34,896 bases of DNA, taken from contig JAJTHN010000042.1 of assembly GCA_021297895.1 (NCBI GenBank), forward strand, positions 1-34,896, in the 5' to 3' direction. The number at the start of each line of letters is the position of its first letter. Position 1 is the first letter of the stretch. The DNA is from Phycisphaeraceae bacterium. Its GTDB lineage: Bacteria > Planctomycetota > Phycisphaerae > Phycisphaerales > UBA1924. Shown piece by piece: positions 18,739 to 29,056 of the stretch. The notes beneath the pieces are model-generated. The model saw only the letters and a program-made list of their open reading frames with translations, was not told the DNA's origin and did no database searches. The position numbers were made by a program, and so were the translations under genes.

Positions 18739-20388
18739 ATGAGCGAAACCGACCCCTCGACCCTGCTGCCCCGCCGAACGTTCGCGATCATCTCGCACCC
18801 GGACGCCGGCAAGACGACGCTGACGGAGAAGTTCCTTCTCTACGGCGGCGCGATCGGACTGGCCGGCTCGGTCACCGCGCGCAAGGACCAGCGTGCCACG
18901 GCGAGCGACTGGATGGAGCTGGAAAAGCAGCGCGGGATCTCGATCAGCTCCACGCTGCTGCAGTTCGACTATCAGGGCTATCGCGTGAATCTGCTCGATA
19001 CGCCGGGCCACAAGGACTTTTCGGAGGACACCTATCGCGTGCTGACGGCGGTGGATGCCGCGGTCATGGTGATCGATGCGGGCAAGGGTGTCGAGAGCCA
19101 GACGCGCAAGCTCTTTGAGGTGTGCCGCCGGCGGGGCGTGCCGATTTTCACGTTCATGAACAAGTGCGATCGTCCGACGCGATCGCCGCTGGACCTGATC
19201 GATGAACTCGAGAAGGTGCTTGGCATCGGCGCGTTTCCGGTGAACTGGCCCATCGGCTCAGGGCCGACGTTCCGCGGCGTGTTCGATCGCGTGGCGAATC
19301 AGGTCCACCTGTTCGAGAAGACGCCCGGCGGCGCGTTCGCCGCGCCGGTGGCCGTCGGCGGGATCGACGACCCGGCGCTGCTGAGCAAGCTCGACAGTGC
19401 GGCCCACCACGAGTCTCTGGACGAGGTCCGGATGCTCGACGGCACCGGGGGCGCGGGCGCGGCCTTCGACCAGGCCGCGGTGCTCGCCGGCAAGGTCACG
19501 CCGGTGTTCTTCGGCAGCGCGATGAACAACTTCGGCGTGCAACTGCTGCTCGACGGATTCCTCAAGCACTCCTCGCCCCCCACTCCGCGCATGAGCAAGT
19601 CCGGGCTCATCACGCCCGATGACAAGCGATTCTCCGGCTTTGTCTTCAAGATCCAGGCCAACATGGACCCGCGGCACCGAGACCGCATCGCGTTCCTGCG
19701 CGTGGTCAGTGGGACGTTCGACCGCGACATGTTCGTCGTTCACGCCCAGACCGGAAAACGCGTGCGCCTCGGCAACGCGACCAAGCTCTTCGGCAACCAG
19801 CGTGAGACCGTCGAACAGGCCGTCGCGGGCGATGTCGTCGGCCTGGTCGGCAACGACCTCTTCGGCATCGGCGACACGCTCACCGACGACCGCACGATCG
19901 TCTACGACGAGATTCCCGAGTTCTCGCCTGAGGTCTTCGCGTACCTGCACAACCCTCAGCCGGGCAACTACAAGCGGTTTAATCTCGGCCTCGAACAACT
20001 CCTCCGCGAGGGCGTCGCACGCAAGTTCGAGGCTGTCGGCGGGGCACAAAAGGTCGCGCTCCTGGCGGCGGTCGGCCAGCTGCAGTTCGAGGTTCTGGTC
20101 TACCGCCTGCAGAACGAGTACGGCGCCGAGAGCCGCCTGGAGCCCGCGTCGTGGACCATGGCCCGTTGGTGGCGATACAAGGGCCAGCCCGCGCCGACGC
20201 TCAGCGATATGGAGAACCTCACGCTGCCCGATGCACCGGAGGGGTCGCGCCTGGTGTTCGACGATCGCGGGCGGGCGCTGGTGCTGTTCGTCGACCAGTG
20301 GCCGCTGAGGTTCTTCAGCGATCGCAACCCGACGGTCGAGCTCTCGCCGATCCCGTTCGACAAGCCCGCCGCGGTCGCGGCGACGTGA
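18739..20388 (+). CDS. prfC: Peptide chain release factor 3
   Basis: The 549-residue GTPase recycles RF1/RF2 from the ribosome after termination. G-motifs are visible: G1 HPDAGKTT (20-27), G2 region KQRGISISST, G3 DTPGHKDF and G4 NKCD. The KQRGISI and GHKDFSEDTYR segments set RF3 apart from EF-G. Length is close to the usual 525-535 with a small C-terminal excess. ATG 18739 is the first start consistent with homology; the in-frame region upstream overlaps the arsR promoter and is not coding. It is divergent from arsR. Confidence 0.96.
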   Translation: MSETDPSTLLPRRTFAIISHPDAGKTTLTEKFLLYGGAIGLAGSVTARKDQRATASDWMELEKQRGISISSTLLQFDYQGYRVNLLDTPGHKDFSEDTYRVLTAVDAAVMVIDAGKGVESQTRKLFEVCRRRGVPIFTFMNKCDRPTRSPLDLIDELEKVLGIGAFPVNWPIGSGPTFRGVFDRVANQVHLFEKTPGGAFAAPVAVGGIDDPALLSKLDSAAHHESLDEVRMLDGTGGAGAAFDQAAVLAGKVTPVFFGSAMNNFGVQLLLDGFLKHSSPPTPRMSKSGLITPDDKRFSGFVFKIQANMDPRHRDRIAFLRVVSGTFDRDMFVVHAQTGKRVRLGNATKLFGNQRETVEQAVAGDVVGLVGNDLFGIGDTLTDDRTIVYDEIPEFSPEVFAYLHNPQPGNYKRFNLGLEQLLREGVARKFEAVGGAQKVALLAAVGQLQFEVLVYRLQNEYGAESRLEPASWTMARWWRYKGQPAPTLSDMENLTLPDAPEGSRLVFDDRGRALVLFVDQWPLRFFSDRNPTVELSPIPFDKPAAVAAT

Positions 20389-20408
20389 ACCCGCCGGGAG
20401 GAGGCCTC

Positions 20409-21178
20409 ATGCTTCTTGACGTGGCGATTCTGAGCGGGCTTTTCGTCCTGGTGATCGGCTCAACGCTGGCGGGGATCGTGCGCGGGCGTCGCCTGCCGCG
20501 CGAGCGTCGCCCGGAGAACGAACACCTTGGGACGATCCAGGGTGCGTTTCTGGGGCTGCTCGGGCTGCTGCTGGGCTTCGCATTCGCGGGGGCGATGTCG
20601 CGGTTCGTCGATCGGCAGGATCGTCTGGCCAGTGAGGCTAACGCGATCGAGACGGCCTTTGATCGCGGCGCGCTGATGGCCGATTCGAAGGAGTATCGCT
20701 CGCGGATCGCGTCGTACGCTCGCGAGCGCGTGACGCTATTTCACGCTCAGAGCGACGCCAAGTCCCGCGAGATCACCAACACGCTCAGCACGCACTACCG
20801 CGCGGCCCTCGGCCTGGCGATGTCCAGCGCGGTGCAGCCGCCGCGTTCTCATCGCTCTTCGTGCAGGGTGTCGAGACGATCGACAATGAACTCTCGGCAC
20901 GCAACGCCGTCGCACGCAGGCATCTGCCCGCGGAGTTCACACTGGTGATGATCGGGTGTTCGTGCGTGGCGATGTTCTCGATCGGATTCGGCGTTGGCGT
21001 GGCGGAGCGTCGCTCCGTAAGCACGGCTCTGGCGCTCGCCGGGCTGGTCTCGATGACGCTCTTCATGACGCTGGACTTCGATCGCCCGCAGGGCAGATTC
21101 ATCCGTCTGGACCCAACGCCGATCAAGGGCGTCGCCGAGCGGCTCGCCCGAGAGACCGCGGCCCAGAACTCCCCCTGA
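20409..21178 (+). pseudogene. DUF4239-like (bestrophin-like) membrane protein gene with a -1 frameshift
   Basis: A strong AGGAGG (20399-20404) precedes the ATG. The first frame encodes a membrane helix (LLDVAILSGLFVLVIGSTLAG), a second (TIQGAFLGLLGLLLGFAFAG) and a charged region up to about 20837, then turns into non-homologous sequence ending at 20948. The matching continuation is in the -1 frame from about 20837: FSSLFVQGVETIDNELSARN, two more membrane helices and a stop at 21176-21178. Joined, it gives about 256 residues with the usual DUF4239 layout of two N-terminal and two C-terminal helices. Restoring one base, for example a G at 20837, would repair it. It could be a real mutation or a sequencing error; the site is not a long homopolymer. 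Confidence 0.8.
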
Positions 21179-21253
21179 TGCAAATGTCCTCATCACGGGC
21201 CACGATCCACGACCGAGGGTGCCCCTGAGTCCTCGATCTTGAGTGGGACTCGC

Positions 21254-21282
21254 TTGCCACCTGTTCAAGCGCAGGCTAGAGT
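21254..21282 (+). promoter_or_regulatory. Promoter of the histidine operon
   Basis: TTGCCA (21254-21259), a 17-base spacer and TAGAGT (21277-21282) give five and four of six consensus matches. The -10 ends eight bases before the leader-peptide ATG, so transcription should start at or just before that codon. Confidence 0.7.
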
Positions 21283-21290
21283 CTTCAGAG

Positions 21291-21353
21291 ATGATTCTCG
21301 CCGTCCGCCATTCCCACCATCATCACCATCACGTCACCGACGTGGCTGGCTGA
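21291..21353 (+). CDS. hisL: His operon leader peptide (attenuator)
   Basis: This 20-codon ORF reads M-I-L-A-V-R-H-S, then six consecutive His codons (21315-21332), then V-T-D-V-A-G and TGA (21351-21353). Seven of 20 residues are histidine. It is followed by a perfect terminator hairpin at 21388-21413 and then hisG, the classical arrangement for ribosome-mediated attenuation: stalling on uncharged His-tRNA should favour read-through. No Shine-Dalgarno sequence is visible and the promoter is only eight bases away, so it is probably translated from a leaderless transcript. The peptide itself needs no function. Confidence 0.92.
   Translation: MILAVRHSHHHHHHVTDVAG
21330..21350 (+). promoter_or_regulatory. 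Pause hairpin and antiterminator strand of the his attenuator
   Basis: CACGTC (21330-21335) and GACGTG (21339-21344) form a 6-bp hairpin beginning at the last His codon. GGCTGGC (21344-21350) can pair over 7 bp, with one G-U, with GCCGGCC (21392-21398), which is the 5' arm of the terminator. That makes it a candidate antiterminator, covered when the ribosome reaches the leader stop codon. This was folded by eye only. Confidence 0.55.
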
Positions 21354-21387
21354 GGGTGCGCGGCGGAATGAACCGTTGAACACCGAT

Positions 21388-21423
21388 CGACGCCGGCCCT
21401 CGTGCCGGCGTCGTTTGCCTTTT
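21388..21423 (+). terminator. Intrinsic terminator of the his attenuator
   Basis: CGACGCCGGC (21388-21397) pairs perfectly with GCCGGCGTCG (21404-21413) around a 6-base loop. TTTGCCTTTT (21414-21423) follows. It lies between the leader peptide and hisG. Confidence 0.88.
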
Positions 21424-21466
21424 GGGCGACGCGCATCGGCACCCGGGCGGGCAAGGAGCCCCCACC

Positions 21467-22399
21467 GTGACGACGCTGAACGCCCGACCGACATCCAACT
21501 CCGCCACCGCCACGCTCGCCGCGGCCACGAAAGACACGGGGCTGCTGAAGCTCGCGCTGCCGAAGGGCCGCATGCAAGAAGGGGTCTTTGCGCTCTTGAG
21601 CGAAGCGGGAATCAAGGTGCGCCTCAGCGCCCGCGGCTATCGCCCGCAGGTGTCGCTGCCCGGCGTGGACGCGAAGATTCTCAAGCCGCAGAACGTCGTC
21701 GAGATGCTGCACGCGGGCTCGCGCGATGTGGGGTTTGCAGGGGCCGATTGGGTCCGGGAACTCAACGCCGATCTGGTTGAAGTGCTCGACACCGGGCTCG
21801 ATAGCGTGCGCATGGTCGCCGCGGCACCCGCGACGATTATGCGTGAGGGCAGGCCGGATGTGTCCGGTCGGGCGATGATCATCGCGTCGGAGTACGAGCG
21901 GCTGACCCGGGCATGGATCGCCGCGCGCAGCCTCAACGCGACGTTCGTTCGCTCCTATGGGGCGACGGAGGCGTTTCCGCCCGACGACGCCGACTGCATC
22001 GTGGACATCGCTGCGACCGGCGACACGCTGCGAGCGCAGAACCTCGATGTGTTCGATGAACTCATGACCTCGTCAACGCGCTTGTACGCCAACCGTGCCG
22101 CGATGAGCGATCCGGCGAGAGCGCGGGCGATCGAACGCTTCGCGATGCTGCTTCGATCGGTCCTTGAGGCCCGCGGACGCGTGATGATCGAGGTCAACGT
22201 TTCGCGCGAGGCTCTTGGCGCGGTGGTCGCCGTGCTCCCGTGCATGCGAGAACCCACGGTGTCGATGCTCCACGGCGAGGGGGGCTTCGCCGTCAAGGCC
22301 GCGGTGCGGAAAGACGCGTTGCCGACGCTGATCCCGGACATCAAGTCCCGCGGCGGGACGGACATCGTCGTGACCTCGCTCTCACAGATCATCCCATGA
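21467..22399 (+). CDS. hisG: ATP phosphoribosyltransferase, long form
   Basis: The 310-residue enzyme catalyses step 1 of histidine synthesis (ATP + PRPP to PR-ATP). LKLALPKGRM, the GADWV loop and the PRPP loop DIAATGDTLR are clear. The C-terminal ~75 residues (from about VMIEVNVSREALGAV) form the PII-like regulatory domain of long-form HisG, so feedback inhibition by histidine is expected and HisZ is not needed. GTG 21467 has AAGGAG at 21453-21458. An in-frame TTG at 21422 is less likely because it lies in the terminator tail. The stop overlaps the next ATG (ATGA). Confidence 0.96.
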   Translation: MTTLNARPTSNSATATLAAATKDTGLLKLALPKGRMQEGVFALLSEAGIKVRLSARGYRPQVSLPGVDAKILKPQNVVEMLHAGSRDVGFAGADWVRELNADLVEVLDTGLDSVRMVAAAPATIMREGRPDVSGRAMIIASEYERLTRAWIAARSLNATFVRSYGATEAFPPDDADCIVDIAATGDTLRAQNLDVFDELMTSSTRLYANRAAMSDPARARAIERFAMLLRSVLEARGRVMIEVNVSREALGAVVAVLPCMREPTVSMLHGEGGFAVKAAVRKDALPTLIPDIKSRGGTDIVVTSLSQIIP

Positions 22400-24177
22400 G
22401 CACCCTCGCCACCACCAACAGCAGTCCGGTCCGGCTCGCGGAACGAGCACTCGGGCGCTCGCCGTACGCACCACCGACACCGGAGTATCGAATAGATCTG
22501 CATCTGGATGCCAATGAGGGCTCGCCCGCGCCCGAGACGGTGATCGCGGCACTGAGCCAACTGACCGGCGAGGACCTTCGACGCTATCCCGATGCGCGTC
22601 CGCTCGAGCGGCAAATCGCGGCACTTCTGGGCGTCGATGCGGAGCGCGTGCTCGTGTGCGCGGGAGGCGATGATGCGATCGATCGCGCGTGCAGGGCTTG
22701 CCTCGAGCCCGGTCGCGAACTCATCCTGCCGACGCCGACGTTCGAGATGATCCGACGCTCGGCGGAACTCGCGGGCGCGAGCGTGCGGACGGTGCCCTGG
22801 GTCGCGGATGCGTATCCGACATCGGCGGTGCTTGCGGAGGTGACGGATCGCACGTCGATGATCGCGGTGGTCTCGCCCAACAACCCGACGGGTCTGGTCG
22901 CTGATGCCCACGCGCTGGAGGCTCTCTCGGCTGCGGCGCCGAGCGCACTGCTGCTGGTAGATCTGGCATACACCGAGTTCGCGTCGGACGATCTGACTCA
23001 AGCGGCGCTGCGGCTGCCGAATGCGCTGGTCGTCCGGACATTCTCGAAGTTCTGCGGGCTCGCGGGCCTGCGCGTGGGGTACTGCATCGGCGATGCGCGC
23101 GTGATCAGGGCGCTTCGGGCCGTGGGGTCGCCGTATCCCGTGTCGGCCGCATCCTTGCGCATCGCGTCGGCATCGCTGGAGCCCGCAGCCGCGAGGGAGC
23201 GCTCGGCTGTTCGCGCGGGTGTCATCGCCAATCGCCAGCGCATCGCCAGCGTGCTCAAGACACTCGGCGCGAGCACCGTGCCGTCGCAGGCCAACTTCGT
23301 GCTCGCGCGGCTCGGTGAGCCGGCGCGCGTCGCACGCGGTCTGGCGGCGCTGGGTATCGCGGTCCGACAGTTCCCCGGTACGCCAGAACTCCGCGATGCG
23401 CTGCGCATCACGATCCCGGCGTCGGCGGCCGATGCGGATCGCCTCGTTCGATCGCTCCGCAGTGTGATGAGGCCGGAGGCCCTTCTGCTGGACATGGACG
23501 GCGTGATCGCGAACGTCGCCGAGTCGTACCGGCGAGCCATCGTGCTCGCCGCGGGATCGTTCGGTGTTTCGGTGACGAGAGAGGATGTCGAGGCGGCCAA
23601 GGCACGCGGTGACGCGAACAACGACTGGATCGTCACTCAGCGGCTGCTTGCGGATGCAGGTGTGCGGGCGGATCTTGCGGCGGTTACAGAACGCTTCGAG
23701 GCGTTCTACACGGGAACAGCCGGCGATGGCGAGGGACCGCTTTTCGAGCGCGAGACGATGATTCCTTCTCGCCGCACGCTCGAAGACCTCGCGGCGTTGC
23801 TACCGATCGCGATCGTGACGGGCAGGCCGCGGCGGGACTGTGATCGCTTCCTTGATCGCTTCGGCATCCGCGGTCTGTTCGGCGCGATCGTCTGCATGGA
23901 GGATGCGCCGCGCAAGCCCGATCCTGCGCCGGTGGCGATGGCGATGGCTCGCTTGCGCGTGACCAGCGCGTGGATGGTCGGCGATACGTCCGACGATCTC
24001 GTCGCCGCACGCGGCGCGGGGGCGCTGCCGATCGGCGTGATCCCGCCCGGTACGGATGCATCGCGGCTTGAGCGGGTGCTCCGCATGAGCGGCGCCGCCG
24101 AAGTTCACGCGTCGCTCGAGAGCATCGCATCATCGCTGAAGCAACTTCTCGCACCAGCATCGGAGGCCTCTGAATGA
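22396..24177 (+). CDS. hisC: Histidinol-phosphate aminotransferase fused to a HAD-family phosphatase
   Basis: The 593-residue protein has two parts. Residues 1 to ~355 are a HisC-type PLP aminotransferase: SPNNPTG, DLAYTEF and the Schiff-base lysine K218 in TFSKFCGLAGLRVGY. From ~360 to 593 is a HAD subfamily IA hydrolase with D366-M-D368-G, TGRPRRD (motif II), RKPDP lysine (motif III) and GDTSDD starting at G529 (motif IV). HisC makes L-histidinol phosphate, and the next step is its dephosphorylation. No HisN, PHP-type HisJ or bifunctional HisB N-domain is present in the operon, so the HAD domain is a strong candidate for the missing histidinol-phosphatase. That is inference from context and fusion. 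The start overlaps the hisG stop and the stop overlaps the hisB start, both by ATGA. Confidence 0.93.
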   Translation: MSTLATTNSSPVRLAERALGRSPYAPPTPEYRIDLHLDANEGSPAPETVIAALSQLTGEDLRRYPDARPLERQIAALLGVDAERVLVCAGGDDAIDRACRACLEPGRELILPTPTFEMIRRSAELAGASVRTVPWVADAYPTSAVLAEVTDRTSMIAVVSPNNPTGLVADAHALEALSAAAPSALLLVDLAYTEFASDDLTQAALRLPNALVVRTFSKFCGLAGLRVGYCIGDARVIRALRAVGSPYPVSAASLRIASASLEPAAARERSAVRAGVIANRQRIASVLKTLGASTVPSQANFVLARLGEPARVARGLAALGIAVRQFPGTPELRDALRITIPASAADADRLVRSLRSVMRPEALLLDMDGVIANVAESYRRAIVLAAGSFGVSVTREDVEAAKARGDANNDWIVTQRLLADAGVRADLAAVTERFEAFYTGTAGDGEGPLFERETMIPSRRTLEDLAALLPIAIVTGRPRRDCDRFLDRFGIRGLFGAIVCMEDAPRKPDPAPVAMAMARLRVTSAWMVGDTSDDLVAARGAGALPIGVIPPGTDASRLERVLRMSGAAEVHASLESIASSLKQLLAPASEASE

Positions 24178-24761
24178 CCCCACGCACCGCAATCCGCGAA
24201 CGCCGCACCGGGGAGACGAAGATCAACGTCCGGCTTGATCTCGATGGCACGGGGCAGAGCAGCATTCGCACCGGCATCGGTTTTCTGGATCACCTTCTGA
24301 CCGCGCTCGCTCGGCACGCCCGGATCGACATCGAGCTCTCGTGCGACGGCGATCTGCACATCGACGACCATCACACCGCCGAAGACTGCGCCATCGTGCT
24401 GGGAAGCGCGATCGATGCGGCACTGGGTGAACGCGTCGGTTTCGGCCGCTTCGGGAGCGCGTATGCACCGCTGGATGAGTCGCTCGCTCGCGCCGTCATC
24501 GACTTCTCGGGCAGGCCGCACGCCGAGGTGAGCCTCGGCCTGACGCGCGAGGCCATCGGCGGGCTCGCGTGCGAGAACATTCCGCACGTGCTGCGTTCGC
24601 TCGCGATATCGATGCGCGCGACGTTGCATGTTGACGTCATCCGCGGCGAGAACGACCACCACAAAGCCGAGGCCGCGTTCAAGGCGCTCGCTCTGGCGAT
24701 GCGGATGGCCATCGCCCGCACGGCGAGCAGCGACGTTCCCAGCACGAAGGGGTCGCTATGA
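24174..24761 (+). CDS. hisB: Imidazoleglycerol-phosphate dehydratase
   Basis: The 195-residue monofunctional enzyme catalyses step 6 of the pathway. The two metal-binding repeats are clear: DHHTAEDCAI (about 63-72) and ENDHHKAEAAFKA (about 160-172), with FLDHLL near residue 37. There is no N-terminal phosphatase domain as in enteric HisB. Both ends overlap neighbours by ATGA, so it is tightly coupled to hisC-HAD and hisHF. Confidence 0.97.
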   Translation: MTPRTAIRERRTGETKINVRLDLDGTGQSSIRTGIGFLDHLLTALARHARIDIELSCDGDLHIDDHHTAEDCAIVLGSAIDAALGERVGFGRFGSAYAPLDESLARAVIDFSGRPHAEVSLGLTREAIGGLACENIPHVLRSLAISMRATLHVDVIRGENDHHKAEAAFKALALAMRMAIARTASSDVPSTKGSL

Positions 24762-26290
24762 CGCGTACACCCAGCACCTCCAAGGGGCTCCCGCCATCAG
24801 CGGCCGCGATGGACGATGCCGCGATCATCGCTCCCGATTCCGGAAAAGTCGCTGACGTGACCATTCTCTCGACCGGGAGCGCCAATCTCGCATCGGTCGT
24901 CGCGGCATTCGAGCGGCTCGGAAGCCGGGCGACGATCACGACGGATCCGCTGATCGCCGAGCGGGCGGAGCTGCTTGTTCTGCCCGGGGTCGGCTCGCTC
25001 GGGAGCGCGATGGCCTCGCTGGGCCAGCGCGGGCTGATCGACATGATCCGGCGTCGCTGCGCAGCGCATCGCCCGCTGCTGGCGATCTGCCTGGGGCTTC
25101 AACTGCTCGCTGAGGCCAGCGATGAATCGCCGGGGGTCGCGGGGCTTGGCGTGATCGAGGGACGCGCCGAGCGCTTCGCGTCGAGCGTGCGCGTGCCGCA
25201 GATGGGCTGGAACCGCATTGTTCCCGGGAGCGGATGCGTCATGCTCTCTGAAGGAGATGCGTACTTCGCGAACTCGTACGCGCTCCGGCGCGCCCCGCTT
25301 GGCTGGGCATCAGCGACATCAACGCACGACGGTGCATTCATCGCCGCGATCGAGCGCGGGCCGATACTCGCGTGCCAGTTCCATCCGGAACTCTCCGGCG
25401 CGTTCGGGCTCTCCTTGCTGCGGCGCTGGCTGGATGCTGCGGGCTCGCGGGGCGTGGGCACTTCAACCTCCACACCGACGTCGGGGGGCGCACTTTCCCG
25501 CTCATCGGGGCTCACTCGCCGCGTGATTCCATGCCTGGATGTCCGCGCGGGTCGGGTCGTCAAAGGGGTTCGATTCGCGAACCTCGTGGACTCCGGTGAC
25601 CCGGCGGAACTCGCCGCCCGCTACGAGTTGCAGGGCGCGGACGAACTGACGCTGCTCGACGTCTCGGCGACACCCGAGGACCGCGGAGCGAGCACCGCGA
25701 CGGTCCGAGCGGTTCGGCGGGCGATCTCGATTCCACTCACCGTCGGCGGCGGCGTGCGGACGATCGACGATGTCTCTCGCCTGCTGGACGCCGGGGCCGA
25801 CAAGGTTGCGATGAACACGGCGGCAGTGGCGAAGCCGGATCTCCTGTCTGCCGCCGCGGCACGGTTCGGCACCCAGTGCATCGTGATCGCGATCGACGCC
25901 GCGCGTCGGAGCGCCGGACCCGACTCGGCGGCACCATCGTGGCGTGTGGTCGTCCGGAGCGGGACGGAGCATCTGGACCTCGATGGGGTGGAGTGGGCCG
26001 CGCGAGCCGCCGCGTGCGGCGCCGGCGAGGTGCTGCTGACCAGTCACGATCGCGACGGCACACGCAGCGGCTACGACACCGAACTGCTCGCCTGCGTGGC
26101 CCGCGCGGTGGGCGTGCCCGTGATCGCCTCCGGCGGCGCCGCGGGCCCTGAGCACTTCATCGAGGCGCTGCGCACCGGGGCCGATGCGGTCCTGGCCGCG
26201 GGGATCTTCCATACGGGTCTCTTGTCAATCGCCGACGCGAAACGCACGCTCGCAGACGCGGGGATCGCGATGCGTCTGCCGGTGCGATAG
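24758..26290 (+). CDS. hisHF: Imidazole glycerol phosphate synthase, HisH-HisF fusion
   Basis: The 510-residue protein joins the glutaminase and cyclase of step 5, normally two subunits in bacteria and fused in fungi (HIS7) and plants. The HisH part (about 32-230) has the nucleophile C111 in AICLGLQ and the pair H209/E211 in CQFHPE. A Ser/Thr-rich linker of ~20 residues follows. The HisF part (about 255-510) has D261 in RVIPCLDV and D380 in IAIDA, the two catalytic aspartates, plus LTVGGGVRT and DRDGTRSGYD. The first ~30 residues are not conserved; a start near the internal Met18 or later is possible, although the ATGA overlap with hisB supports 24758. Confidence 0.95.
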   Translation: MTRTPSTSKGLPPSAAAMDDAAIIAPDSGKVADVTILSTGSANLASVVAAFERLGSRATITTDPLIAERAELLVLPGVGSLGSAMASLGQRGLIDMIRRRCAAHRPLLAICLGLQLLAEASDESPGVAGLGVIEGRAERFASSVRVPQMGWNRIVPGSGCVMLSEGDAYFANSYALRRAPLGWASATSTHDGAFIAAIERGPILACQFHPELSGAFGLSLLRRWLDAAGSRGVGTSTSTPTSGGALSRSSGLTRRVIPCLDVRAGRVVKGVRFANLVDSGDPAELAARYELQGADELTLLDVSATPEDRGASTATVRAVRRAISIPLTVGGGVRTIDDVSRLLDAGADKVAMNTAAVAKPDLLSAAAARFGTQCIVIAIDAARRSAGPDSAAPSWRVVVRSGTEHLDLDGVEWAARAAACGAGEVLLTSHDRDGTRSGYDTELLACVARAVGVPVIASGGAAGPEHFIEALRTGADAVLAAGIFHTGLLSIADAKRTLADAGIAMRLPVR

Positions 26291-26338
26291 CCGCCAACCC
26301 ACGTCACACCCACCCACTCCTTCACCACATAGCCGACC

Positions 26339-29056
26339 ATGATCATTCCTTCAATCGACCTTCGCAACAACTCGACGGTTCAGCTCATCGGCGGCCGCGA
26401 ACAGGCGCTCGACGCCGGGGACCCGCGTCCGATCGCTCGGCGCTTTGCACTGGCGGGGGAGGTCGCGGTCATCGATCTCGATGCCGCGATCGGCACCGGG
26501 TCGAACGCGCCGCTCATCCGCGATCTGCTCCCGCTGGCCCGCTGCCGCGTCGGCGGCGGCATCCGCTCGGTGAGCAGCGCGCTGGGCTGGCTCGATGCCG
26601 GTGCGGCGAAGGTCATCCTCGGCACCGCCGCAACTCCAGAATTGCTCCGCGAACTGCCCGCCCAACGCGTTATCGCGGCCCTCGACGCGGATCACGGCAG
26701 CGTCGTTGTCGAGGGTTGGCGCAAGTCCACCGGCGAGACCATTCTCGACCGCATGAAGCGCCTGCAGGGCTTGGTCGGCGGCTTCCTCATCACCTTCGTC
26801 GAGCGCGAGGGGCGGCTGGGCGGAACCAACATGGAACTCGTCCCCGAACTCGTTCGCATCGCGACGGAGGCCGGCGCGCGCGTCACGATCGCCGGCGGTG
26901 TGACGACTGCGCAGGACATCGCGCAGCTCGATGCGCTCGGCGCCGACGCGCAGGTCGGCATGGCCCTCTACACCGGACGGATCACGCTCGCTCAGGCGAT
27001 CGCAGCGCCGCTGCGTTCCGATCGCGCCGACGGGCTCTGGCCGACCGTCGTGACAGATGAGACCGGCGTCGCGCTGGGGCTTGCGTACTCCAGTGCGGAG
27101 AGTCTGGAGCACGCCGTGAATACCGGCCGCGGCACATACCACTCCCGCACGCGGGGGCTTTGGGTCAAAGGCGAAACGTCGGGCAACACGCAGCAACTTG
27201 TCGGCATCGATCTGGACTGCGATCGCGACACGCTGCGGTTCCGCGTGCGTCAATCCACCGACACGCCCGACGGCCGCGCGAGCTTCTGCCACACCGGCGA
27301 CTACACATGCTTCGGCCAGGCAACGGGCCTTGCGGCGCTGGCCGCGAGACTTCCAACGAGCATCATTCAAGGCCCGGCCGCGAACGGGGCACCCGCGGCG
27401 GACTCCGGGTCCTACTCGGCACGGCTGCTGAGAGACCCCGCGCTGCTTCGGGCCAAACTGATCGAGGAAGCCGGTGAACTCGCGGACGCAGTGACATCCG
27501 ACGCCGCGGCGGTGACCCACGAGGCGGCGGACGTGATGTACTTCGCGATGGTCGCGATGCGTCGAGCCGGTGTGACGCTGGCGGATGTCAGCCGCGAACT
27601 GGATCGGCGTGCACTGCGGGTCTCGCGACGACCGGGCGACGCCAAGCCGGGTGCGATGGCCGACACTGCCGCGTTGGCGACGCGAAGCGATGCGAGCATG
27701 CGCGACACCCCCGGCGCGAGCACCCCGACCGGCGCGGATGCGACCAGCGGCGGCACGGGCCTCCTGCCGATGCGCACGCCCGAGCAGATTCGCACGCTCC
27801 GCCGCCGCGCAACGCCGATCGAACCCGAGGCTCTCGGCGTTGCACGTTCGATTCTCGCGGACGTTGACACCCGCGGCGAGATCGCGGTCCTTGAGCACGC
27901 GATGCGTCTCGGCGACCTGACGCCCGCCGCGCCGCGGCTATACACCCCCGACGACCTCAGCACAGCGCTGCGCTCGATCCCGACTGCCGACCGCGAACTG
28001 CTCGAACGCACGGCCGGACGCGTACGGGCGTTTGCACTCGCACAGCGCGGGAGCGTCACTGATCTGACCTTTTCGGTTCCGGGCGGCGCGGCGGGGCACA
28101 CATGCGTTCCGGTAGAGACCGCGGGCTGCTACGCGCCGGGCGGGCGATTCCCGCTTCCGTCGTCGGTGCTGATGACGGCGATCACCGCGCGTGCCGCGGG
28201 CGTGAGGAACATCGTCGTCGCTTCGCCCCGTCCGGCTCCGATCACGCTCGCGGCCGCGGCGGTTGCTGGAGCGGACATGCTGCTGCCGATGGGCGGGGCA
28301 CAGGCGATCGCCGCGATGTCGCGCGGGCTCGCGGGCGTGCCGCGGTGCGACATGATCGTCGGACCGGGCAACCGCTACGTGACCGCGGCGAAGTTCCTCG
28401 TCAGCGACACGACCGGCATCGACATGCTCGCCGGACCATCGGAACTGCTCATCATCGCCGATCAGGACGCCGACCCGGCACTGATCGCCGCGGACCTGCT
28501 CGCGCAGGCTGAGCATGACGATGACGCGATCCCGATGCTCATCGCCGTAACTTCAAGACCGGACGGACCCGATCTTCTGCCCCGGGTGGCGAGCGCTCTG
28601 GCCGCACAACTCGCCGACCTGCCGCCGACGAGCCCGGCTCGAAGGTCGCTTGCGAACGGCTTCATGACGCGGGTGGCATCGAGCGAGGAGGCGATCGCGC
28701 TGGCGGACATGATCGCGCCGGAGCATCTTGAGATCATGACCGCCGATGCGGCAGATATCGCCCAGCGGCTCCGCAACGCCGGCGCGTTGTTCATCGGTCC
28801 GGACGCGGCGGAGGTACTGGGCGACTTCGGCATCGGGCCGAATCACGTGCTGCCCACCGGAGGAACCGGACGGTTCCGCGCGGGGCTGTCGGTCTTCACG
28901 TTTCTCAGGCAGCGAACGTGGCTCCGTGTTGCATCGGGGCGTGATGGGGCGACATCCGACGCGGCGAACTTCGCGCGCCTGGAGTCGCTCCCCGCCCACG
29001 CCGCGGCAGCCGCGCTCAGGGCGGGCGCGACACGGGCCGACGATCGGCATTTGTAG
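26339..29056 (+). CDS. Tetra-domain histidine enzyme HisA-HisI-HisE-HisD
   Basis: The 905-residue protein carries four enzymes. HisA (1 to ~228) is an isomerase barrel with D7 in IPSIDLRN; EREG, with a Glu, replaces the usual second catalytic Asp. HisI (~230-335) has the metal motif D293-C-D295-R-D297 and C317/C324 in FCHTGDYTCFG. HisE (~352-440) is an all-helical pyrophosphohydrolase (KLIEEAGELADAV, HEAADVMYF). A disordered linker (~440-470) leads to HisD (~474-905), which has zinc ligands Q723, H726, D829 and H887 and catalytic E795-H796. Together they cover steps 2-4 and the last two oxidations. The HisI-HisE-HisD part resembles fungal HIS4. The start is 48 bases after hisHF, the only real gap inside the operon. 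Confidence 0.94.
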   Translation: MIIPSIDLRNNSTVQLIGGREQALDAGDPRPIARRFALAGEVAVIDLDAAIGTGSNAPLIRDLLPLARCRVGGGIRSVSSALGWLDAGAAKVILGTAATPELLRELPAQRVIAALDADHGSVVVEGWRKSTGETILDRMKRLQGLVGGFLITFVEREGRLGGTNMELVPELVRIATEAGARVTIAGGVTTAQDIAQLDALGADAQVGMALYTGRITLAQAIAAPLRSDRADGLWPTVVTDETGVALGLAYSSAESLEHAVNTGRGTYHSRTRGLWVKGETSGNTQQLVGIDLDCDRDTLRFRVRQSTDTPDGRASFCHTGDYTCFGQATGLAALAARLPTSIIQGPAANGAPAADSGSYSARLLRDPALLRAKLIEEAGELADAVTSDAAAVTHEAADVMYFAMVAMRRAGVTLADVSRELDRRALRVSRRPGDAKPGAMADTAALATRSDASMRDTPGASTPTGADATSGGTGLLPMRTPEQIRTLRRRATPIEPEALGVARSILADVDTRGEIAVLEHAMRLGDLTPAAPRLYTPDDLSTALRSIPTADRELLERTAGRVRAFALAQRGSVTDLTFSVPGGAAGHTCVPVETAGCYAPGGRFPLPSSVLMTAITARAAGVRNIVVASPRPAPITLAAAAVAGADMLLPMGGAQAIAAMSRGLAGVPRCDMIVGPGNRYVTAAKFLVSDTTGIDMLAGPSELLIIADQDADPALIAADLLAQAEHDDDAIPMLIAVTSRPDGPDLLPRVASALAAQLADLPPTSPARRSLANGFMTRVASSEEAIALADMIAPEHLEIMTADAADIAQRLRNAGALFIGPDAAEVLGDFGIGPNHVLPTGGTGRFRAGLSVFTFLRQRTWLRVASGRDGATSDAANFARLESLPAHAAAAALRAGATRADDRHL

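Follow-up and report, generated by a model that had tools for sequence, protein, structure and literature searches.

The region directly upstream of hisG in the window (the whole 34,896-nt stretch of DNA analyzed here) very probably harbors an attenuator that controls transcription of the his operon through a translating ribosome and senses the supply of His-tRNA. The parts of this element, their conservation and their link to hisG have been established by computation. On balance, it also appears likely that the element represents a distinct family of his attenuators, unmatched to the enteric one and equipped with a leaderless sensor ORF, that is found throughout Planctomycetota, in phyla labelled Myxococcota and Acidobacteriota, in single Gemmatimonadota and Armatimonadota, and in a few Pseudomonadota.

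Architecture of the his leader region

A first-pass annotation of this DNA had described a promoter, a His-rich leader, a hairpin, an antiterminator option and a terminator ahead of hisG, and all of these were recovered where it had placed them. The features are as follows.

21254–21282, + strand: sigma-70-like promoter TTGCCA-N17-TAGAGT, the −10 box ending 8 nt before the leader ATG
21291–21353, + strand: leader ORF MILAVRHSHHHHHHVTDVAG*, predicted to be leaderless, no Shine-Dalgarno sequence; ATG at 21291, stop codon UGA at 21351–21353
21315–21332, + strand: six successive His codons (CAC CAT CAT CAC CAT CAC), the putative stall site and segment 1
21330–21344, + strand: inner 6-bp hairpin of the 1:2 (anti-antiterminator) structure, CACGUC-ACC-GACGUG, starting from the last His codon
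21342–21358, + strand: segment 2 (GUGGCUGGCUGAGGGUG), with the leader stop codon inside it
21388–21398, + strand: segment 3 (CGACGCCGGCC), the 5′ arm of the terminator and the partner of segment 2 in the putative antiterminator
21388–21423, + strand: terminator hairpin with a 10-bp stem (21388–21413) and loop CCTCGT, followed by the U-rich tail TTTGCCTTTT
21297–21423, + strand: match to covariance model R1 (33 chosen rows, of which the window is one, and 126 positions), 93.1 bits
21467–22399, + strand: hisG, the first gene of the operon, with a GTG start and AAGGAG at 21453–21458
22396–29056, + strand: remainder of the his operon (hisC-HAD fusion, hisB, hisHF fusion, hisA-hisIE-hisD fusion)

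The leader of 20 codons with seven His, six of them in a row, can be read directly from the sequence, the 6-bp hairpin does start at the last His codon, and the 10-bp terminator before hisG was the single match in a terminator scan of 21150–21480 (shuffle mean 0.1). A promoter scan of the same interval also gave a single match (shuffle mean 0.0). GGCUGGC at 21344–21350 is complementary to GCCGGCC at 21392–21398, which provides the antiterminator option; the UGA falls within segment 2, here as well as in those VAG-type relatives that were inspected, and the Shine-Dalgarno sequence of hisG lies outside the terminator, ~40 nt 3′ of its stem. Folding of 21283–21470, which the annotation had put forward as a check, yielded a structure that is stable, but only mildly more so than its shuffles (z = −1.81; 8 of 200 equally stable), and runs of five CAY codons occur at eight sites genome-wide (nine overlapping matches; four for the reversed control pattern). 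Neither the whole fold nor the His run is decisive alone, and the weight of the case therefore falls on conservation.

Behind the element come ORFs for HisG, HisC fused to a HAD domain, HisB, HisH fused to HisF, and HisA fused to HisIE and HisD, so that the known steps of the his pathway, counting the HAD domain as a possible phosphatase, follow it. Three of these genes are fusions: HisA-HisIE-HisD (26339–29056, 905 amino acids), HisH-HisF (24758–26290, 510 amino acids) and HisC-HAD hydrolase (22396–24177, 593 amino acids), in the last of which the HAD hydrolase domain is perhaps a candidate for the missing phosphatase. On the other side of the promoter, the preceding gene (20151–21178) consists of two overlapping ORFs, perhaps owing to a frameshift or sequencing error; one (20151–20948) is weakly Bestrophin-like, below the Pfam cut-off, and the other (20861–21178) is without a match.

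We infer a transcription start, leaderless initiation, ribosome stalling, termination and a response to histidine as follows. RNA polymerase would start on the leader AUG or a few bases ahead of it, so that a ribosome would begin translation on a leaderless ORF. If charged His-tRNA is short, this ribosome would stall on the His run (segment 1) and leave segment 2 free to pair with segment 3 before segment 4 has been made; the 2:3 pairing would block the terminator, and the his operon would be transcribed. If His-tRNA is plentiful, the ribosome would reach the UGA in segment 2 and mask that segment, the 3:4 terminator would form and transcription would stop. Without translation, 1:2 would form, and the terminator would form too.

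Conservation of the leader and of the alternative pairings

HisG matches were obtained in 106 of 200 genomes, including the window's own, and 70 upstream regions were taken, comprising 66 of 68 from families f1 and f2 (G071 and G112 being left out) and 4 of 38 from f5 and f6. A His-rich leader, defined as a short ORF with at least four His in nine residues, lies 5′ of hisG in 60 of these 70 loci, the window included, all of them in f1 and f2. The same rule was satisfied by 4 of 1,400 dinucleotide shuffles, by the antisense strand of 1 of the 70 loci, and by none of 27 and none of 70 control stretches; after His, the largest residue excess in upstream ORFs was that of Ser (10 versus 3.0). The His leader before hisG is not a chance pattern. 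The leader peptides vary (for example, MTPVPQHSHHHHHAFRVAG, MKNALHHHHHHNTGNAG and MATNLFQHHHHHAHPHRRTRS), and conservation thus extends beyond recent shared ancestry alone. None of the four f5/f6 loci taken has a leader or an R1 match better than E = 0.1.

The His filter failed for six f1/f2 loci. Four of these (L012, L015, L019 and L037) possess a readable leader in which His residues are fewer or spaced; the first three match R1 at E = 1.5e-10 or better, and L037 does so weakly (E = 0.005). In L012, L015, L019 and an additional locus, L138, His residues are spaced by Gln and others (HQLQHCMKP, HQLHHCMKQH), with the RNA core kept. Of the other two, L064 retains the terminator part only and L066 nothing clear. 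Their HisG proteins are among the three lowest-scoring in f1/f2, the third being that of L065, which has a leader. In L064 and L066, a strongly diverged HisG (PNGPRQ in L064, PKGRMQ in relatives) coincides with loss of the His leader. More broadly, a HisG match at E = 0.001 was lacking in 94 of 200 genomes (in 80 of 165 if only those of good quality are counted), and no f1 genome among the 19 searched reached the cut-off for leuA; these relatives may often be amino acid auxotrophs or have replaced the enzymes.

Removal of identical leader regions left 96 distinct leader loci, and in 83 of these a terminator, that is, a GC-rich hairpin with a U-rich tail, lies between leader and hisG (194 of 4,800 shuffles); 13 have none under the rule applied. 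Among the 83, 1 of 4,150 shuffles was as stable as the locus's own hairpin. U tails are often interrupted, and that of the window is imperfect. The common core runs from the His codons (segment 1) through GUGGCCGG-GUGAUGGUG round the leader stop codon (segment 2) and ACCAUCGACGCCGGCC (segment 3) to GGCCGGCGUCG followed by U (segment 4). The first-pass annotation had held that its proposal would fall if relatives lacked the His run and the hairpin; with leaders in 60 of 70 loci and terminators in 83 of 96, they do not.

Pair counts were made on 97 aligned matches, in an alignment fitted to 3:4 only. The terminator pairs covary strongly: 98% of 3:4 cells are paired and 51 are doubly changed, a number reached by 0 of 500 shuffles and falling to at most 6 when the arms are slid. 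The 1:2 pairs, derived from folds of the same sequences that were used in the test, covary moderately: 68% are paired and the covariation score is 0.173 (0 of 500 shuffles; 0.02–0.12 when slid). Their 57 doubly changed cells exceed all 500 shuffles but not two of the slid versions (84 at +3 and 60 at −3), and the number of 1:2 pairs with a double change is not above shuffles (232 of 500). The weak point is 2:3, for which 68% of cells are paired (26–51% when slid) and covariation is not clearly above shuffles, either on the 97 matches (54 of 500 by score, 45 of 500 by paired cells) or on the 33-row alignment (145 of 500 and 80 of 500). The covariation that the first-pass annotation had proposed to look for in relatives is strong for 3:4 and moderate for 1:2, but not clearly detectable for 2:3. 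In one locus (L099), segments 2, 3 and 4 have changed jointly (GGUCGG, CCGACC, GGUCGG), as mutually exclusive helices would need. In L010 and L014, one His codon of the run is CGU (Arg) and segment 2 carries UGACGG instead of UGAUGG; 1:2 pairing seems to have been kept there at the cost of a His codon.

Duplex and ribosome-placement energies were calculated for the 83 loci with a terminator. The 2:3 duplexes average −23.1 kcal/mol, compared with −17.1 kcal/mol for shuffled sequences; 46 of 83 loci have at most 5 of 100 shuffles as good, and the own partner takes a median rank of 17 among 82 foreign partners. With a ribosome on the His run and segment 4 unmade, segment 3 is held by upstream sequence with a mean probability of 0.77 (0.47 in shuffles), which exceeds 0.4 in 82 of 83 loci versus 63% of shuffles, and in 50 of 83 loci at most 1 of 30 shuffles is as stable. 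In this state, the window folds at −29.8 kcal/mol (shuffle mean −21.4 kcal/mol; 0 of 30 as stable), and 3 of 30 shuffles do as well as its segment 3 in upstream pairing probability. All 83 loci form the terminator when the ribosome sits at the stop codon and also when no ribosome is present, the hairpins having been picked for stability. For the full-length RNA carrying a stalled ribosome, the terminator is absent from the minimum-energy fold in 27 of 83 loci and still present in 56, including the window, so that the switch must rest on the order of folding. Energies and complementarity in these models support a putative antiterminator. As for the window itself, the 7-bp option noted in the first pass (GGCUGGC/GCCGGCC) is there and the energy tests favor 2:3, but its duplex is weak when considered alone (26 of 100 shuffles as good) and covariation does not stand clearly above shuffles.

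Three other explanations were weighed against attenuation by a translating ribosome. The His run could be a by-product of a CACCAUCAUCAC stretch kept for pairing with segment 2, the terminator being controlled by a protein or ligand and the leader remaining untranslated. There is indeed pairing, with some covariation, between segments 1 and 2, and the change of CAU to CGU (His to Arg) in L010 and L014, alongside UGACGG for UGAUGG, speaks for it too; yet the CAY codons share the frame of a start codon whose distance from the promoter is nearly fixed (80 of 90 leaders), the stop codon lies inside segment 2, the RNA core of L012, L015 and L019 persists together with an ORF that has fewer His codons, and no Rfam family reaches its gathering threshold in the window. 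This explanation is accordingly rated as very improbable. Translational attenuation, in which the leader would act not on RNA polymerase but on how accessible the ribosome-binding site of hisG is, is scarcely more probable: it would fit the imperfect U tail and the hairpins that may form round the hisG start in L003, L004 and L005, but the hisG Shine-Dalgarno sequence is ~40 nt downstream of the terminator stem, and the hairpin with a U-rich tail is far more frequent than in shuffles (83 of 96 loci). Hairpins enclosing the Shine-Dalgarno sequence and start codon are, moreover, confined to such cases and not general (mean z = −0.28 over 92 loci, with start codons guessed by script), and a second layer of control at the hisG start was likewise rejected.

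The least probable of the three, and very improbable, is that the terminator is constitutive and the ORF a decoy left from a horizontally transferred operon and unused in this genome. Some HisG proteins labelled Myxococcota or Deltaproteobacteria are nearly as close to that of the window as many from Phycisphaerales, and the HisG tree mixes phyla, as such a transfer might predict; against it, parts and pairing are intact both in the window and in relatives with HisG of ~50–73% identity and quite different leader peptides, which suggests continued selection. Ribosome-mediated attenuation of transcription is thus the preferred reading.

Distribution of the element across phyla

The four best named relatives of the window's HisG are 69–73% identical to it, and each of the top five carries the label Phycisphaerales, Phycisphaerae or Planctomycetota, in agreement with the planctomycete-like origin proposed in the first pass. 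In the HisG tree, the smallest starred clade containing the window consists of Planctomycetota-labelled rows only. From these sequences, we infer a source in Planctomycetota, probably in Phycisphaerales.

The rows of R1 include the window, L091, L131, L145 (labelled Myxococcota), L150 and L151 (Acidobacteriota), and scores obtained for model rows, or for the two seed genomes (G480 and G483), follow from the way the model was built. The window's own genome contains one strong match (93.1 bits), the next best scoring 27.4 bits. A search of 294 genomes of the phylum gave matches at E = 0.01 or better in 66, and many of these matches are weak or restricted to the terminator; in the 19 best apart from the own genome (E = 3.5e-5 or better), hisG follows R1 in 16, and 15 of these have a His-rich ORF. 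Eleven of these 16 genomes are labelled as the same phylum and not as the same class, order or family. Matches also occur in 9 of 188 genomes from the phylum of L131 (its record being titled Myxococcota), 7 of them before hisG, and in 9 of 199 from that of L151 (Vicinamibacterales), 8 of them before hisG, the seed genome being counted in each case; together, R1 precedes hisG in 15 of 18 matching genomes, or in 13 of 16 without the two seed genomes. Most of the 188 and 199 genomes searched in these two phyla have no R1 match.

Among the best 80 of 421 named hisG loci, which overlap with the unnamed ones, the ORF rule detected a leader in 47 and R1 in four more. A leader is present in 20 of the 22 of these loci labelled Phycisphaerae; by the ORF rule, it is lacking in 5 of 5 loci with the label Alphaproteobacteria and in 15 of 20 with the label Myxococcota. 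Such labels may be wrong for metagenome-assembled genomes. On a HisG tree of 81 rows, which mixes phyla, the presence of the leader needs at least 17 changes. The backbone is poorly supported, with 33 of 78 inner branches open, and the tree was therefore rejected as an arbiter between gain and loss or transfer; descent is not settled by it.

Matches of R1 without hisG comprise the 27.4-bit match in the own genome, L178, L180, L184, L205, L206 and L214. By eye, the first six look like chance matches or like terminators that follow genes of another kind, and they were discarded as his elements. The window's own genome carries the terminator core ACGCCGRC..GYCGGCGT at four sites, and stems of this kind seem to end other genes also; the likeness of segments 3 and 4 across phyla may consequently reflect, in part, convergence on a favored terminator. 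An unusual arrangement was seen in genome G742 (contig C1:3595-3973; L211 and L216), where two His leaders, MVIATVSRHHHHHHPILGPGTGARAV and VPFHAHHHHHVHFPPG, and two R1 matches are arranged in tandem before one hisG.

A predicted leaderless sensor ORF and its relation to known attenuators

The position of the promoter was assessed for 90 of the 96 leaders, namely those of 14–30 amino acids that begin with ATG or GTG and have 120 nt or more of sequence in front of them. When the best promoter-like pair is picked from these 120 nt, its end lies 5–10 nt from the start codon in 80 of 90 leaders and 2–12 nt from it in 81 of 90, compared with 202 of 1,800 plain shuffles; TTGAC occurs at −45 to −30 in 75 of 90 leaders and at −120 to −105 in none. 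Shine-Dalgarno-like words before the leaders are at background (7 of 90; 7.2% in shuffles). Transcription usually starts 6–8 nt behind the −10 box, which would place the start of the transcript ~0–4 nt from the leader AUG. Because the −10 box lies 5–10 nt before the start codon and Shine-Dalgarno sequences are not enriched, the sensor ORF is predicted to be leaderless. The first-pass annotation overlooked this apparently leaderless start, as well as the spread beyond one phylum and the separateness from the enteric His_leader.

Leaders for other amino acids were also considered. Trp leaders were rejected as a habit of these families: an ORF with WW or three W was seen in 4 of 30 loci before the best trpE-like matches, at inconsistent places. 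Contig ends had shortened some loci of this set, so that its 600-nt stretches did not in every case lie directly upstream. Leu-rich ORFs (...APLLGLLLLSAHCG, MDRNAYQNDGLLLSLVLLLSASGG and ...PLAGLLLLGAHAG), followed by a hairpin and a T run, lie 5′ of leuA in three of the four loci with full-scoring leuA (L247, L248 and L249, from families f5 and f6). By eye, a promoter-like pair ends just before the ATG in L247 and L248, and all three are probable leaderless leucine attenuators.

If a distinct family of this kind does extend through these phyla, amino-acid sensing by a stalled ribosome is widely spread, having been repeatedly transferred or being very old, and is no gamma-proteobacterial speciality; in these phyla, it would work by initiation without a Shine-Dalgarno sequence. 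The element would give the bacteria that carry it a built-in reporter of His-tRNA charging, make transcription-translation coupling in planctomycetes testable and provide a natural collection of ORFs that are probably leaderless and whose role is known.

Rfam 15 has no family that matches the window at gathering threshold, the T-box riboswitch (RF00230) included. RF00514 (His_leader; gathering cut-off 49 bits) finds nothing in 21200–21500 even at E up to 10, and 18 loci searched at E up to 5 likewise lack a match, whereas the E. coli his leader, as positive control, scores 131.6 bits. Conversely, R1 gives the E. coli leader only 14.4 bits. RF00506 (Thr_leader) scores 31.8 bits on the window, below its gathering cut-off of 55; the His run reads as Thr codons in another frame. 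The enteric attenuator (RF00514; E. coli hisL) has in common with the present element a His-rich ORF and a terminator before hisG and the same inferred logic of exclusive hairpins. However, E. coli hisL is preceded by AGAG, whereas the window's leader lies at the predicted transcript start and has no Shine-Dalgarno sequence; E. coli hisL has a longer 5′ UTR. The element thus appears to work like the enteric attenuator while standing outside its family. His leader peptides have reportedly been described for Actinobacteria too, according to a proceedings title.

The first-pass view that his attenuation is known mainly from enterics and their relatives is a little narrow: his attenuators are published for Proteobacteria and Firmicutes, along with hisS/hisZ leaders of bacilli (PMC9413887, PMC2965389, PMC4833913), candidates being listed for the Bacillus cereus group, Peptostreptococcaceae and Erysipelotrichales (PMC9413887). 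Leaders of Firmicutes and Proteobacteria are reported to have no similarity to each other (PMC2965389). As described there, those of Firmicutes likewise combine a His leader peptide with attenuator and terminator hairpins before his genes; they belong to another phylum than the window's, and the comparison is by description, unaligned to the present family. T-box riboswitch and HisR control (PMC9413887) concern the same genes and signal, and the T-box has no match in the window. Among the matches listed by a full-text literature search, the passages returned contained no his attenuator from Planctomycetota, Acidobacteriota or Myxococcota; an earlier mention in Lopatovskaya 2010 or Vitreschak 2004 is possible.

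The sensor ORF has its closest counterparts elsewhere. By its title, a paper of Morbach from 2000, referenced in PMC4046766, is said to concern a C. glutamicum ilvBNC leader without a ribosome-binding site. The S. meliloti trpL is a leaderless leader peptide (PMC7298713), and, as predicted here, a sensor ORF at the 5′ end of the transcript controls a terminator. The leaders trpL and ilvBNC sense Trp or branched-chain amino acids and belong to other phyla, and they are likened to the present element by description, not by sequence. The principle of the his attenuator described here is old; its phylum, its sequence family and the start of its sensor ORF are apparently new.
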